From the NCBI RefSeq assembly GCF_900112285.1, contig NZ_FOKZ01000001.1, forward strand, positions 62,001 to 126,000: 64,000 nt of DNA. Reading direction: 5' to 3'. The position numbers were made by a program, and so were the translations under genes. The notes under the pieces were generated by a model that had not been told where the DNA came from, ran no database searches, and worked only from the letters and a program-made list of their open reading frames with translations. This stretch comes from Polaromonas sp. OV174 (lineage in GTDB: Bacteria; Pseudomonadota; Gammaproteobacteria; Burkholderiales; Burkholderiaceae_C). Positions within the stretch are counted from its first letter, which is position 1, and the number at the start of each line of letters is the position of its first letter. Below are positions 32,249 to 53,560 of this stretch, piece after piece.

Positions 32249-33775
32249 ATGACCTTACTCAACTCTGCTGCCGCGTCCGCTCGATTCACCAATGTGCAAG
32301 GGCGTCCACCGGCCCGCCCCACACGCGAGTCCACCTCCGAGCGCCTGGTCATCGCCCAAAAGCTGCTGCTGGAGCCCTTTGGCCTGAGCGATGCGGCGCT
32401 GAGCCGCGCACTGGGTGAAATCACCTCGTATGGCGTGGACGATGCCGATCTCTACTTTCAGTACACCCGCAGCGAAGGCTGGAGTCTGGAGGAGGGCATC
32501 GTCAAGACTGGCTCCTTCAGCATCGACCAGGGGGTGGGCGTGCGCGCCGTCAGCGGTGAGAAAACCGCGTTTGCCTATTCCGACGATATCTCCGAAGCTT
32601 CGCTGCTCGATGCCGCCCGCACCGTGCGCAGCATCTCGGGCGCCGGCAAGGCCGGCCGCGTCAAAACGCCGGCCCGCAAAATTGCCAGCAGCCGCTCGCT
32701 CTATCGCGATCTGGACCCGATTGCCACGCTGGGCAGCACGGCCAAGGTCAAGCTGCTGGAGAAAGTGGAGAAGCTGGCCAAGGCCAGGGATCCGCGCATT
32801 GTGCAGGTGATGGCCGGCCTGGCCAGCGAATATGACGTGGTGCTGGTGGCCCGCGCCGACGGCACGCTGGCCGCCGATGTGCGTCCTCTGGTGCGTTTGA
32901 GCGTGACGGTGATTGCCGAGCAAAAAGGCCGGCGCGAAGTGGGTTCGGGCGGCGGCGGCGGCCGTTTTGGCCTGGTTTATTTTGACGACGCGCAAATCGG
33001 CCACTATGTGGATGCCGCCGTGAATGCGGCGCTGACCAATCTGGATGCGCGCCCGGCGCCTGCCGGCCAGATGACCGTGGTGCTCGGCTCCGGCTGGCCC
33101 GGCATCTTGCTGCACGAAGCCATAGGTCACGGTCTGGAGGGCGATTTCAACCGCAAGGGTTCCAGCGCGTTTTCCGGCCGCATCGGCCAGCGCGTGGCAG
33201 CCAAGGGCGTGACGGTGCTCGATGACGGCACCATCGCCGACCGTCGCGGCTCGCTCAATGTCGATGACGAAGGCAACGCCAGCCAGCGCAATGTGCTGAT
33301 TGAAGACGGCATCTTGAAGGGCTATATCCAGGACTCCATGAATGCGCGCCTGATGGGTGTCAAACCCACCGGCAATGGCCGGCGTGAAAGCTATGCCCAT
33401 GTGCCCATGCCGCGCATGACCAACACCTACATGCTGGGCGGCGACAAGGCCCCCGAAGAAATTGTCGCCAGCATCAAGAAAGGCCTGTACGCCACCAATT
33501 TCGCCGGCGGCCAGGTCGACATCACCTCGGGCAAGTTCGTGTTCTCTGCCAGCGAAGCCTTCTGGGTGGAAAACGGCAAGATTCTTTATCCGGTCAAGGG
33601 CGCGACGATTGTTGGCAACGGCCCCGATGCGCTGACCCGTGTCACCATGATGGGCAATGACATGCGGCTGGACAGCGGCGTCGGCACCTGCGGCAAGGAA
33701 GGCCAGAGTGTGCCTGTGGGCGTGGGCCAGCCGACCTTGCGGATTGACGGGCTGACCGTGGGCGGCACCGCCTGA
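32249..33775 (+). CDS. tldD: Metalloprotease TldD
   Basis: 508 residues; about 25 longer than the E. coli protein because of an N-terminal extension (MTLLNSAAASARFTNVQGRP). The zinc motif HEAIGHGLEGD is near residue 290, followed by the conserved DDGTIADRRGSLNVDDEG and GRRESYAHVPMPRMTNTYM segments. TldD acts with TldE/PmbA as a heterodimeric protease (microcin maturation, CcdA degradation); PmbA is not in the window. ATG 32249 is the first in-frame ATG after the -10 box and fits a leaderless start; a later start near SERLVIAQKLL would give the standard length. Confidence 0.93.
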   Translation: MTLLNSAAASARFTNVQGRPPARPTRESTSERLVIAQKLLLEPFGLSDAALSRALGEITSYGVDDADLYFQYTRSEGWSLEEGIVKTGSFSIDQGVGVRAVSGEKTAFAYSDDISEASLLDAARTVRSISGAGKAGRVKTPARKIASSRSLYRDLDPIATLGSTAKVKLLEKVEKLAKARDPRIVQVMAGLASEYDVVLVARADGTLAADVRPLVRLSVTVIAEQKGRREVGSGGGGGRFGLVYFDDAQIGHYVDAAVNAALTNLDARPAPAGQMTVVLGSGWPGILLHEAIGHGLEGDFNRKGSSAFSGRIGQRVAAKGVTVLDDGTIADRRGSLNVDDEGNASQRNVLIEDGILKGYIQDSMNARLMGVKPTGNGRRESYAHVPMPRMTNTYMLGGDKAPEEIVASIKKGLYATNFAGGQVDITSGKFVFSASEAFWVENGKILYPVKGATIVGNGPDALTRVTMMGNDMRLDSGVGTCGKEGQSVPVGVGQPTLRIDGLTVGGTA

Positions 33776-33796
33776 GGCGTGGATTTACAGCTGTGC

Positions 33797-33802
33797 TACA
33801 GT
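33797..33802 (+). promoter_or_regulatory. Possible -10 box before the aroG leader peptide
   Basis: TACAGT ends 7 bases before the leader-peptide ATG, the spacing of the other leaderless starts in this window. A matching -35 is weak (TGAGGC at 18 bp), so transcription from upstream cannot be excluded. Confidence 0.35.
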
Positions 33803-33809
33803 TAATCAA

Positions 33810-33884
33810 ATGACATCTGCGAAATTTTATTTTGCTTACTTTTGGTTCTCAAGCGCCACCGGCGGTAGAGAGATCTTCGCGTAA
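33810..33884 (+). CDS. aroG leader peptide, aromatic-rich (24 residues)
   Basis: The frame starts at ATG 33810 and ends at TAA 33882-33884. Residues 6-13 are Phe-Tyr-Phe-Ala-Tyr-Phe-Trp-Phe: seven aromatic residues in eight (codons 33825-33848). The next gene makes the first intermediate of aromatic amino acid synthesis, and a strong intrinsic terminator lies 27 bp past the stop. This is the architecture of ribosome-mediated attenuation (compare the E. coli pheA and trp leaders). Its start shows no Shine-Dalgarno. The peptide itself probably has no function; its translation speed is the sensor. Seen: the codons and hairpins. Inferred: the regulation. Confidence 0.8.
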   Translation: MTSAKFYFAYFWFSSATGGREIFA

Positions 33885-33942
33885 GCAGAAAAATACGCAC
33901 CAAGAATCTTGAAAACCGCCGGGCCCCCGGCGGTTTTTTTTT
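33846..33942 (+). promoter_or_regulatory. Transcription attenuator of aroG (competing hairpins)
   Basis: Terminator: AAAACCGCCGGG (33912-33923) pairs with CCCGGCGGTTTT (33926-33937), followed by nine Ts. Antiterminator: CCGGCGGT (33859-33866) can pair with ACCGCCGG (33915-33922), and AGATCTT (33871-33877) with AAGAATCT (33902-33909, one bulge), destroying the terminator stem. Sequestering hairpin: TCTC (33847-33850) with GAGA (33868-33871) around CGCC/GGCG (33854-33857, 33861-33864). A ribosome stalled on the aromatic codons would open the sequestering hairpin and favour antitermination; one at the stop codon covers CCGGCGGT and lets the terminator form. Confidence 0.75.
33912..33942 (+). terminator. 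Intrinsic terminator in the aroG leader
   Basis: Perfect 12-bp G+C-rich stem (33912-33923 with 33926-33937) followed by nine Ts. It is placed 63 bp before aroG, not at the end of tldD (137 bp away), so it fits an attenuator better than a plain tldD terminator, though it would end tldD transcripts as well. Confidence 0.9.
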
Positions 33943-34005
33943 GCCCTTTCATTTTTGTTTGTACTGATTCCCGAAATTGTCTGAAATTTAACAAGGAAGC
34001 CTGCG

Positions 34006-35136
34006 ATGAATGCCAAAGCCACCTCCACCAGCCCACCCCAGGACAGCTGGTATGCGAACGTCGAAAAAACCAGCCAGACCGACGACGAACGCATCAAGGA
34101 CATCACCGTGCTACCCCCTCCCGAGCATCTCATTCGCTTCTTCCCGATTCGCGGCACCGCCGTCGAATCGCTGATTACCCAGACCCGCCAGAACATTCAC
34201 AACATCATCGCCGGCACGGATGATCGCCTGCTGGTGGTGATTGGCCCTTGCTCCATCCATGACCCGATGGCCGCGCTGGACTACGCGCGCCGCCTGGCCG
34301 AGCAGCGCACCAAATATGCAGGTACGCTGGAAATCGTGATGCGCGTGTACTTCGAAAAACCGCGCACCACCGTCGGCTGGAAGGGGCTGATCAACGACCC
34401 TTACCTGGATGAAACCTACCGCATCGACGAGGGCCTGCGGATTGCCCGCCAGTTGCTGATAGATATCAACCGCCTGGGCCTGCCTGCCGGCAGCGAGTTC
34501 CTGGATGTGATTTCCCCTCAGTACATTGGCGACCTGATCGCCTGGGGCGCGATTGGTGCGCGCACCACCGAAAGCCAGGTTCACCGCGAACTGGCCTCGG
34601 GACTGTCGGCGCCCATTGGCTTCAAGAACGGCACCGATGGCAACATCCGCATCGCCACGGATGCCATCCAGTCGGCCAGCCGTGGCCATCACTTCCTGTC
34701 GGTGCACAAAAACGGCCAGGTGGCCATCGTCAACACCAGCGGCAATAAAGACTGCCACGTCATCCTGCGCGGCGGCAAAACGCCCAATTACGACGCCGCC
34801 AGCGTGGCTGCGGCCTGTAAGGAGCTGGCCGCTTCCAAGCTGCCGGCCACCTTGATGGTCGATTGCAGCCATGCCAACAGCTCCAAGCAGCACGAAAAGC
34901 AGATCGAGGTGGCACGCGACATCGCGGCCCAGGTGGCCGGTGGCTCGCGCCAAGTGTTTGGCTTGATGGTGGAAAGCCATCTGAGCGCCGGTGCCCAAAA
35001 ATTCACCCCCGGCAAAGACGACTCCAAGGCACTGGAGTACGGCAAGAGCATTACCGACGCCTGTCTGGGCTGGGACGATTCGCTGGCCTTGCTGGAGTCA
35101 TTGTCGGCCGCGGTGCAAGCTCGTCGGGCGAAGTAA
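34006..35136 (+). CDS. aroG: 3-deoxy-7-phosphoheptulonate (DAHP) synthase, type I
   Basis: 376 residues. Condenses phosphoenolpyruvate and erythrose 4-phosphate, the first step of the shikimate pathway. AroFGH family: VVIGPCSIHDPMAALDYARRL near residue 75, EKPRTTVGWKGLINDP near 116, GSEFLDVISPQY near 163, GARTTESQVHRELASGLSAPIGFKNGTDG near 183, and MVDCSHANSSKQ near 284. Which aromatic acid inhibits the enzyme cannot be told by eye; E. coli counterparts differ by subtle residues. ATG 34006 has AAGGAAG upstream. Controlled in all likelihood by the leader attenuator. Confidence 0.95.
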   Translation: MNAKATSTSPPQDSWYANVEKTSQTDDERIKDITVLPPPEHLIRFFPIRGTAVESLITQTRQNIHNIIAGTDDRLLVVIGPCSIHDPMAALDYARRLAEQRTKYAGTLEIVMRVYFEKPRTTVGWKGLINDPYLDETYRIDEGLRIARQLLIDINRLGLPAGSEFLDVISPQYIGDLIAWGAIGARTTESQVHRELASGLSAPIGFKNGTDGNIRIATDAIQSASRGHHFLSVHKNGQVAIVNTSGNKDCHVILRGGKTPNYDAASVAAACKELAASKLPATLMVDCSHANSSKQHEKQIEVARDIAAQVAGGSRQVFGLMVESHLSAGAQKFTPGKDDSKALEYGKSITDACLGWDDSLALLESLSAAVQARRAK

Positions 35137-35714: not shown

Positions 35715-37133
35715 TCAGGACTTCAGCGTGTCCAGTAGTTTGGCGTGAATGCCGCCAAAGCCGCCGTTGCTCATGCACAGCAAATGATCGCCCGGCCTAG
35801 CCGCTGCCTTGACCTGCGCCAGCAATTGATCCAGGTTGTCCGCCACTTGCGCCCGCTCGCCCATGGGCGCCAGTGCGGCCCTGGCGTCCCAGTCGAGACC
35901 GCCGGCATGGCAAAAAGCCAGATCAGCCTGCGCCAGGCTGGCCGGCAGCTGCGCCGTCATGCTGCCCAGTTTCATGGTGTTGCTGCGCGGCTCGAAGATG
36001 GCCAGTATGCGCGCCTGCGCGCCCTGAAGCTGGCGGCGCAGGCCGTCCACGGTGGTGTGTATGGCCGTCGGGTGATGTGCGAAGTCGTCGTAGACCGTGA
36101 TGTCGCCGTCGCTGCGACGGACCACGCCACGCACCTCCATGCGGCGCTTGACGTTCTGGAAGCTGGCCAGTGCTTCGGCGGCCTGCGCCGGCGTCACGCC
36201 GACATGCTCGGCCGCAGCCATGGCGGCCAGCGCATTGAGCTGGTTGTGCACGCCGCTGATGCCCCAGCGCACTTGGGCCACGGCCTGGCCGGCCTTGAGG
36301 ACCTGAAAGTCTTGCGGTTCGCCCTGGGCGCTAAAGCCATGGGTATTGCGTGCGGCATTGCCAAAGAGTATCTGTTCACTCCAGCAGCCCTGGGCCAGCA
36401 CGCGCTGCAGGCTGTCTTCCGCGGCATTCACGACCACGCGGCCCTGTGAGGGGACGGTGCGCACCAAGTGGTGAAACTGCCGCTCTATGGCCGCCAGGTC
36501 GGGAAAAATGTCGGCGTGATCAAACTCCAGATTGTTCAAAATGGCTGTGCGGGGGCGGTAGTGCACAAACTTGCTGCGCTTGTCGAAAAAGGCGGTGTCG
36601 TATTCGTCGGCCTCGATCACAAAGGTGTTGCCCTGGCCCAGTCGGGCCGACACGCCAAAGTTGAGCGGCACACCGCCTATGAGAAAGCCCGGCTGCAGCC
36701 CGGCCTGCTCCAGAATCCAGGCCAGCATGGCGGTGGTGGTGGTCTTGCCATGGGTGCCGGCCACGGCCAGCACATGGCGCGGCCCGGTGGCGTGATGGGT
36801 GGGGTGGTGCAGCACATGGCCAGACAGCCATTGCGGGCCGCTGGTATAGGGCAGGCCGCTATTGAGTATGGCTTCCATCAGCGGGTATTTCGGGCTGCCA
36901 TCGGCCAGGCGCGCGCGCGACACCACATTGCCGACCACAAACACATCGGGTGCAAAGCCCAGCTGGTCGGCGTCATAGCCCTCGATCAGCTCAATGCCCA
37001 GACCGCGCAGCTGGTCGCTCATGGGCGGATAAACGCCGGTGTCGCAACCCGTGACCTTGTGCCCCGCTTCGCGCGCCAGAGCCGCCAGACCGCCCATGAA
37101 AGTGCCGCAGATTCCCAGAATATGTATGTGCAT
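35715..37133 (-). CDS. mpl: UDP-MurNAc:L-Ala-gamma-D-Glu-meso-DAP ligase Mpl
   Basis: 472 residues. Peptidoglycan recycling: reattaches the recovered tripeptide to UDP-MurNAc. MurC-like three-domain fold with HILGICGTFMGGLAALAREAGH at the N-terminus, P-loop [13 protein letters not shown] near 110, EADEYDTAFFDKRSKFVHYRP near 168, DDFAHHPTAI near 335 and FEPRSNTMK near 364. I start at ATG 37133 (MHIHILG); the ATG three codons earlier lies inside the TAAAAT -10 box, which supports the shorter, leaderless start. Confidence 0.94.
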   Translation of the reverse strand: MHIHILGICGTFMGGLAALAREAGHKVTGCDTGVYPPMSDQLRGLGIELIEGYDADQLGFAPDVFVVGNVVSRARLADGSPKYPLMEAILNSGLPYTSGPQWLSGHVLHHPTHHATGPRHVLAVAGTHGKTTTTAMLAWILEQAGLQPGFLIGGVPLNFGVSARLGQGNTFVIEADEYDTAFFDKRSKFVHYRPRTAILNNLEFDHADIFPDLAAIERQFHHLVRTVPSQGRVVVNAAEDSLQRVLAQGCWSEQILFGNAARNTHGFSAQGEPQDFQVLKAGQAVAQVRWGISGVHNQLNALAAMAAAEHVGVTPAQAAEALASFQNVKRRMEVRGVVRRSDGDITVYDDFAHHPTAIHTTVDGLRRQLQGAQARILAIFEPRSNTMKLGSMTAQLPASLAQADLAFCHAGGLDWDARAALAPMGERAQVADNLDQLLAQVKAAARPGDHLLCMSNGGFGGIHAKLLDTLKS

Positions 37134-37140
37134 GGCGGGC

Positions 37141-37146
37141 ATTTTA
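37141..37146 (-). promoter_or_regulatory. -10 box immediately before mpl (leaderless pattern)
   Basis: Minus strand TAAAAT, then GCCCGCC, then ATG at 37133: 7-nt gap and no ribosome site. Confidence 0.5.
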
Positions 37147-53484: not shown

Positions 53485-53560
53485 GCCGCTTTAGCTCAGT
53501 TGGTAGAGCAACCGCCTTGTAAGCGGTAGGTCGTCAGTTCGATTCCGACAAGCGGCACCA
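53485..53560 (+). tRNA. tRNA-Thr (anticodon TGT)
   Basis: 76 bases. Acceptor stem GCCGCTT (53485-53491) pairs with AAGCGGC (53550-53556), followed by discriminator A and an encoded CCA. D-arm AGCTCAGTTGGTAGAGC, anticodon arm CCGCC-TTGTAAG-CGG with TGT in the loop, and T-arm with GTTCGATTC are all normal. The 3' end is the probable integration site of the adjacent integrase element. Confidence 0.97.

Follow-up and report, generated by a model that had tools for sequence, protein, structure and literature searches.

The DNA analyzed here, called the window, is a 64,000-nucleotide (nt) stretch of the Polaromonas sp. OV174 genome, and all positions are numbered within it. This study concerns the leader region between the genes tldD and aroG, which very probably constitutes a ribosome-mediated transcription attenuator of aroG. 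All features of the locus lie on the forward strand. The open reading frame (ORF) of tldD, the product of which matches the NCBIfam metalloprotease TldD model over residues 245-716, stops at 33775, 34 nt before the ATG of the leader ORF. The leader ORF, MTSAKFYFAYFWFSSATGGREIFA, consists of 24 codons (33810-33884, stop codon 33882-33884) and has no Shine-Dalgarno sequence. It is preceded by the extended -10 promoter element TGCTACAGT (33794-33802), which ends 7 nt before the ATG. Residues 6-13 of the encoded peptide read FYFAYFWF (Phe-Tyr-Phe-Ala-Tyr-Phe-Trp-Phe), and the corresponding putative sensing codons occupy positions 33825-33848. The leader ORF is followed by an intrinsic terminator (33911-33942), composed of a hairpin at 33911-33938 and a T run at 33934-33942. 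The aroG gene (34006-35136) encodes a class I 3-deoxy-D-arabino-heptulosonate 7-phosphate (DAHP) synthase of 376 amino acids (PF00793, 313 bits; TIGR00034, 529.5 bits) and has the Shine-Dalgarno sequence AAGGA at 33993-33997.

An earlier sequence-only reading of this DNA had described the 24-codon frame with its aromatic run and its stop at 33884, as well as the terminator, the nine Ts and the DAHP synthase start at 34006. The sequence and its translation bear out all of these positions. The reading had also described the terminator stem as a GC-rich helix of 12 base pairs. The stem is present, but four of its 12 pairs are formed by an A run with the T run.

The strand CCGGCGGT (33859-33866, segment 2), which lies inside the leader ORF, is exactly complementary to ACCGCCGG (33915-33922, segment 3), in agreement with the sequence-only reading. 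Segment 3 can therefore be either the 3′ side of an antiterminator or the 5′ arm of the terminator. The second helix that had been proposed to extend the alternative fold was recovered in the fold of 33857-33922 with one further G-U pair. It joins 33870-33877 with a partner within 33902-33910. In isolation, the terminator hairpin has a predicted energy of -19.7 kcal/mol and the antiterminator fold one of -26.3 kcal/mol. The RNA of positions 33797-33950 folds at -49.1 kcal/mol, compared with -33.94 kcal/mol (standard deviation 3.53) for shuffled sequences (z -4.29), and none of 200 shuffles folded as well. A third structure, the segment 1:2 protector hairpin (33846-33872, -11.7 kcal/mol), is predicted to form before the 5′ arm of the terminator is synthesized (P 0.997). 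The local hairpin supposed to hide CCGGCGGT thus stands for the early transcript, but not for the later one: after synthesis of the terminator 5′ arm, the protector hairpin gives way to the antiterminator at equilibrium (P 0.999). A simple terminator scan did not return the leader hairpin and listed a weak neighboring hairpin instead.

The conservation of this arrangement was assessed in relatives, defined as the best 80 of 589 loci obtained when genome contigs were scanned with the AroG protein. For each locus, the 500 nt upstream were examined for the best short ORF rich in aromatic codons. Sixty of the 80 loci were picked by eye, from their start codon (ATG, once GTG), aromatic run and distance, before the terminators were inspected. 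Some unpicked loci score like picked ones (L057 and L077, score 5; L044 and L065, score 4). All 60 picked loci contain a CCGCC...GGCG terminator 3′ of the aromatic ORF. They include loci of Polaromonas, Variovorax, Acidovorax, Hydrogenophaga, Rhizobacter, Burkholderia, Caballeronia, Paraburkholderia, Massilia, Janthinobacterium and Oxalobacter, and also of Dyella, which lies outside the Burkholderiales. The sequence-only reading had named terminators retained without the aromatic frame as an observation that would refute attenuation. Such loci were sought among the relatives. No CCGCC-type terminator lies closer than 450 nt to the AroG match in any of the 20 unpicked loci, although L015 has just 10 nt of upstream DNA and is untestable. 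Two unpicked loci have a terminator at about -480 to -495. One of these, Undibacterium L077, carries the aromatic leader MKQVVFFFFFYFSYSRPKAVGRR at -592, about 590 nt before the AroG match and beyond the 500-nt search range. Together with the 60 loci picked by eye, an aromatic-run leader is present in 61 of the 79 testable relatives.

A wider search was made with the covariance model R1, which was built from alignment A1 with the terminator as its sole structure. This alignment holds 57 of 61 leaders (L024, L032, L062 and L063 were left out). The model was run over 300 genomes of the order, and 116 of these gave a match at E ≤0.001, in many cases to the terminator only. Seventy-seven matches, one per genome, were full-length (E 4.4e-23 to 2.8e-6), and every one of them lies upstream of and on the same strand as a homolog of AroG with 58-100% identity. 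The distance from the end of the match to the first matched AroG residue has a median of 50 nt (range -40 to 252). Two of the 77 matches, that of the window itself and L113, coincide exactly with training sequences. Since the filters are strict, 77 of 300 is a lower bound for the presence of the leader. All nine sampled genomes of the window's family carry it. The three full-length matches ranking next (L160-L162) are not accompanied by AroG, and full-length matches at E 5.5e-4 and 8.5e-4 lie outside the set inspected. By eye, the 13 weak or partial matches L160-L172, ten of them partial, resemble ordinary terminators. Twelve of these lack an AroG match, and the remaining one, L165, is oriented toward the 3′ end of a second aroG copy. 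No other gene under the same leader was found among L160-L172, and the window's own genome was matched only at the aroG site. At the class level (369 genomes), seven matches were obtained outside the order at E ≤1e-5. The four with E <1e-9 are full-length, and aroG lies downstream of each of them; MNAARASFYFWYYFPKPLAEEGLRSP is an example of their leaders. The three weaker ones (L177-L179, E >1e-7) have no AroG in the 3 kb that was fetched.

The DAHP synthase paralogs served as a control. They were surveyed in 71 of the 77 genomes (G052, G137, G144, G175, G272 and G291 were left out, by no fixed criterion). All 71 genomes have an AroG match, and 33 have a second one. About 450 nt of upstream DNA was fetched for 29 of the 33 second copies; three others are tandem copies behind the first one, and that of the window's own genome (G000) was read separately. 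None of the 29 upstream regions contains a CCGCC/GGCGG-type terminator within this distance. An aromatic score of at least 5 in 10 residues was reached in 2 of these 29 regions and in 73 of the 77 upstream regions of leader-bearing copies. By eye, no aromatic ORF or terminator of this type was found upstream of the second class I DAHP synthase gene of the window's own genome (G000:C34:31774-32823, L082), the product of which is 56% identical to AroG.

The tandem aroG pairs behind one leader occur in three genomes of one genus (G022:C1:2636369-2638529, G152:C1:2562489-2564623 and G250:C1:3050118-3052290). Two possible links between the leader and the set of isozymes were rejected. A Trp codon is present in the leaders of 18 of the 33 two-copy genomes and 13 of the 38 one-copy genomes (Fisher p 0.099, kinship ignored), so a tie between the Trp codon and isozyme number is not supported. 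A class II DAHP synthase (PF01474) is present in just 3 of the 71 genomes and was discarded as an explanation.

The placement of the aromatic codons relative to the antiterminator strand was studied in 60 leaders. L063, which has no GGCGG motif, was excluded here and from the swap, folding and frame analyses. The RNA 3′ of the ribosome was folded for a transcript ending just past the 5′ arm of the terminator. The mean probability of the antiterminator is 0.82 with the ribosome at codon -15 before GGCGG, 0.99 at codons -7 to -5 and, for the computable cases, 1.0 at codon -4. The fraction of aromatic codons is 0.93 at codon -10, 0.98 at -7, 0.70 at -6, 0.68 at -5, 0.32 at -4 and 0 at -3. Taken together, the codon fractions and the fold probabilities imply that the last aromatic codons stand at the point from which a stalled ribosome would begin to mask the antiterminator strand. 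The absence of aromatic codons at GGCGG itself is partly by construction, because the motif was sought only 3′ of the run; their absence at -3 and -2 is not.

Judging from their sequences, the two halves of the leader differ in the constraints that act on them. The 5′ half keeps its aromatic character while the order of the aromatic residues varies. The 3′ half keeps the GGCGG core in 58 of 60 leaders, and this core is read in frame 0 in 25 leaders, in frame 2 in 34 and in frame 1 in one. Because of this difference in frame, the peptide encoded over the same RNA reads, for instance, PGGRE, TAAGE, PLADRE or PKAVE. The joint occurrence of all three aromatic amino acids, which the sequence-only reading had stressed, holds for the window and for 45 of the 60 close leaders. 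It does not extend to the whole group. Counted anywhere in the peptide, Phe is found in all 76 wider leaders with a detectable run, Tyr in 70 and Trp in 34, and all three in only 33. The triple-aromatic reading thus fits the window and its family rather than the whole group. In the 60 leaders, the Phe codons of the run are TTT in 172 of 253 cases, compared with 84 of 456 in the aroG genes that follow them. As a guess, this preference may reflect decoding speed or serve to avoid pairing.

The predicted pairings were examined in the 57 aligned sequences. In register, 95.7% of the terminator cells and 93.7% of the antiterminator cells are paired, whereas slid registers reach at most 59.4%. None of 500 shuffles attained the covariation score or the paired cells of either helix. 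The pair flanking the core of the terminator is GC in 32 sequences, AU in 22, UA in two and another combination in one. The equivalent pair of the antiterminator is CG in 25, UA in 17, UG in three and AU in two, and is unpaired in ten. Partners were also swapped among the 60 leaders. The antiterminator core duplex with its own partner has an energy of -14.49, compared with -12.78 for permuted partners (0 of 5000 permutations as good), and it beats the mean swap in 47 of the 60 leaders. For the lower flank, which corresponds to the second antiterminator helix, the values are -7.76 and -6.68 (2 of 5000; 39 of the 60). Covariation supports the predicted switch, on few variable pairs. In the test for covarying stems that the sequence-only reading had called for, both helices thus pair in register above slides and shuffles, with two variable pairs per helix.

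In addition, the leader ORF probably lacks a 5′ untranslated region (UTR) in the window's lineage. L071 was left out of the start-site analyses, as its upstream region is too short. The mean anti-Shine-Dalgarno energy at the leader ATG is -0.58 kcal/mol, compared with -1.18 kcal/mol for shuffled sequences, and reaches -4 kcal/mol or below in 2 of 60 leaders. In the 18 sequences with an AroG match from residue 1, which include the window, the aroG start has a mean of -5.58 kcal/mol (14 of 18 at -4 or below), while the leader start in the same sequences has a mean of 0.11 (0 of 18). In 34 of 60 leaders, the promoter motif TGnTAnnnT (consensus GTGCTACATT) has its 3′ end 6-9 nt upstream of the ATG, compared with a mean of 0.27 and a maximum of 2 in 200 shuffles. 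Among the 76 wider leaders, 27 have an extended -10 element at this distance. A -10 element lies at a usual spacing from the transcript start. On this basis, the start is predicted to coincide with the ATG or to be no more than about 3 nt away from it, which in the window corresponds to about 33809-33810. Four Massilia/Rugamonas-type loci have the end of this element 25-39 nt before the leader ATG, and in Burkholderia-type loci a TATAAA was seen by eye farther upstream. With the promoter element farther away, the 5′ UTR of these loci would be short, not absent, and still without a Shine-Dalgarno sequence. The absence of a Shine-Dalgarno sequence and the likely start of the leader ORF at the 5′ end of the transcript had been missed in the sequence-only reading.

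We propose that the aroG leader follows the mechanism of the trp, phe and his attenuators. Transcription would begin at or next to the leader ATG, and the leader ORF would be translated from a transcript with little or no 5′ UTR. During a shortage of charged Phe-, Tyr- or Trp-transfer RNA (tRNA), the leading ribosome would stall on the FYFAYFWF codons and cover segment 1. The stalled ribosome would leave CCGGCGGT free to pair with ACCGCCGG, the terminator would not form, and aroG would be transcribed. When the aromatic amino acids are sufficient, the ribosome would pass over segment 2 toward the stop codon. With segment 2 covered, ACCGCCGG would pair with 33927-33934, and transcription would stop at the T run. 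In folds of short transcripts that end before the terminator arm, the 1:2 pairing exceeds 0.5 in all 60 leaders by a loose measure. With only the RNA beyond a ribosome at the stop codon free to fold, the terminator forms in all 60. The attenuation reading is supported by the conservation of the unit with aroG, the codon placement, the pairing tests and the paralog control.

Several results weigh against this interpretation. At the equilibrium of the full transcript, the terminator is favored even behind a stalled ribosome, and the antiterminator exceeds 0.5 in just 4 of 60 leaders (0.094 in the window). The switch must therefore be kinetic, since the terminator wins at full length in 56 of 60 leaders. 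In the placement test, the edge of the ribosome was assumed to lie 12 nt beyond the start of the A-site codon, and from codon -3 on the antiterminator was set to zero by definition, as the core is covered, and not by folding. The covariation is thin, as each helix has just two variable pairs, and in both helices 15 of the 57 sequences fail to form the outermost pair. Both-side changes were as high in 163 of 500 shuffles for the terminator and in 317 of 500 for the antiterminator; for further pair types the figures are 471 and 24 of 500. These two measures, which are the least prone to relatedness, show no clear excess, and the pairing counts and permutation figures do not fully correct for relatedness. 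The 1:2 hairpin is weaker than the other pairings in the swap test (198 of 5000 permutations reach it, and it is better in 35 of 60 leaders), and a slide by +2 comes close to it. Finally, 18 of the 79 testable relatives have no such leader, among them three Polynucleobacter loci, two Cupriavidus copies, three Methylotenera loci, Rhodocyclaceae relatives and others, and no strong full-length match was obtained in 223 of the 300 genomes of the order.

Of the other explanations, the one that survives best is compatible with attenuation in cis. The terminated leader could also be a small RNA (sRNA) or a small leaderless messenger RNA (mRNA), the RNA or peptide of which acts in trans, as described for rnTrpL and peTrpL of Sinorhizobium meliloti. 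The probable leaderless start and the terminated leader are common to rnTrpL as it appears in excerpts of PMC10117765 and PMC7298713. By this analogy, a leaderless small mRNA would integrate Phe, Tyr and Trp supply in cis and, after termination, would be released as an sRNA or an aromatic peptide acting in trans. We consider both the additional role and this combined scheme unlikely. A conserved function of the C-terminal half of the peptide is improbable because its frame differs among lineages; targets were not searched for.

In nascent-peptide arrest, as in TnaC and SpeFL, the ribosome is stalled with the help of a free amino acid ligand. If this applied here, the aromatic peptide and the ligand, not a shortage of charged tRNA, would arrest the ribosome. 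The short and hydrophobic peptide, which keeps its aromatic character, would suit such a mechanism. However, the order and identity of its aromatic residues vary (FYFAYFWF, YFFAFFWF, FFTGYFYF and FYFYFFWY), and they are spread over about nine codon positions, while a ligand pocket would be expected to fix particular residues. This makes peptide arrest a quite improbable account of the leader. It is scarcely credible that the hairpin is a plain intrinsic terminator of tldD next to a chance aromatic ORF, with the aroG promoter farther down: tldD does end close to the leader, and the weak or partial model matches at 13 loci elsewhere do resemble ordinary terminators, but the unit keeps its association with aroG across the Burkholderiales as well as in Dyella, the ORF strand changes in step with the terminator arm, and the aromatic codons are placed as described above.

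Two further features were observed around the locus. The mpl gene (35715-37142, reverse strand), which encodes UDP-N-acetylmuramate:L-alanyl-gamma-D-glutamyl-meso-diaminopimelate ligase, lies downstream of aroG in convergent orientation. A sigma-70-like promoter match (TTGAGA, 17 nt, TAAAAT) is located at 33852-33824 on the reverse strand, antisense to the leader ORF and pointing out of it. It is the sole such match in 33600-34100, where 0.1 is expected from shuffles, and could have arisen as a side effect of the AT-rich codons for aromatic residues.

The attenuator, if real, would bear on the entry of aromatic biosynthesis. The aroG gene encodes an entry enzyme of the shikimate pathway, and it appears that it would be switched on only when Phe, Tyr or, in this lineage, Trp is short. 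In Escherichia coli, the proteins TyrR and TrpR act as regulators, according to an excerpt of PMC5343134. An entry step of the pathway in many Burkholderiales and in Dyella would be under codon-coded attenuation, which might act beside or in place of TyrR and TrpR. The leader model would represent a covariance family missing from Rfam. Differences in the encoded amino acids, such as the Trp codon that is kept in the window's family and often lost elsewhere, could then indicate that lineages differ in what they sense.

In the Rfam search that the sequence-only reading had suggested, no family reached its gathering score at the leader. The sole match at this level in the window is a tRNA gene at 53485-53557, and among 12 leader loci it is the signal recognition particle RNA at one locus. 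The best match at the leader is Phe_leader (RF01859), which aligns end to end with the window sequence at 25.8 bits (E 0.014-0.021), below its gathering score of 55. No match to Phe_leader was found at 14 other leader loci at E ≤0.5 in a larger and less sensitive search. Within the titles and abstract openings of the open-licence literature, no description of an aroG attenuator in Burkholderiales was found, and an earlier one elsewhere is possible. Vitreschak and others reportedly carried out a comparative study of attenuators in proteobacteria in 2004. We rate the target gene aroG, the mixed aromatic coding and the probable leaderless start as new, each with some precedent.

The pheA attenuator of enterobacteria, the Phe leader, has an aromatic-rich leader ORF, alternative hairpins and an intrinsic terminator. 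The aroG leader shares with it all of these elements in front of an aromatic pathway gene. It differs in that this gene encodes DAHP synthase and is not pheA, in that Tyr and Trp codons stand beside those for Phe, and in the absence of a Shine-Dalgarno sequence. In the ilvGMEDA and thrABC attenuators, a single leader contains codons for several end products of a common pathway. The aroG leader of the window is similar in coding for several end products, whereas the amino acids and the genes are different. Attenuators have been predicted before aroA-I-alpha-Y > tyrA in Vibrio (Merino website, cited in Table 7 of PMC1173090). This prediction is the nearest one found in the literature, and the excerpts give neither a leader nor a structure for it. 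The table covers tyrA only, and the one beta-proteobacterial row in the excerpts is B. parapertussis gyrA > serC > .... Both the Vibrio prediction and the leader described here precede a DAHP synthase gene, which in Vibrio forms an operon with tyrA, as far as this table goes (PMC1173090). The trpL leader of S. meliloti (rnTrpL/peTrpL) has its ORF at the 5′ end of the transcript and a ribosome-dependent terminator/antiterminator switch, according to excerpts of PMC10117765 and PMC7298713. The aroG leader has the same kind of predicted switch and, judging from its promoter, probably the same position of the ORF. The trpL leader as excerpted, found in Alphaproteobacteria, contains consecutive Trp codons and precedes trpE(G), whereas the leader of the window combines the codons of mixed aromatic amino acids and precedes aroG.

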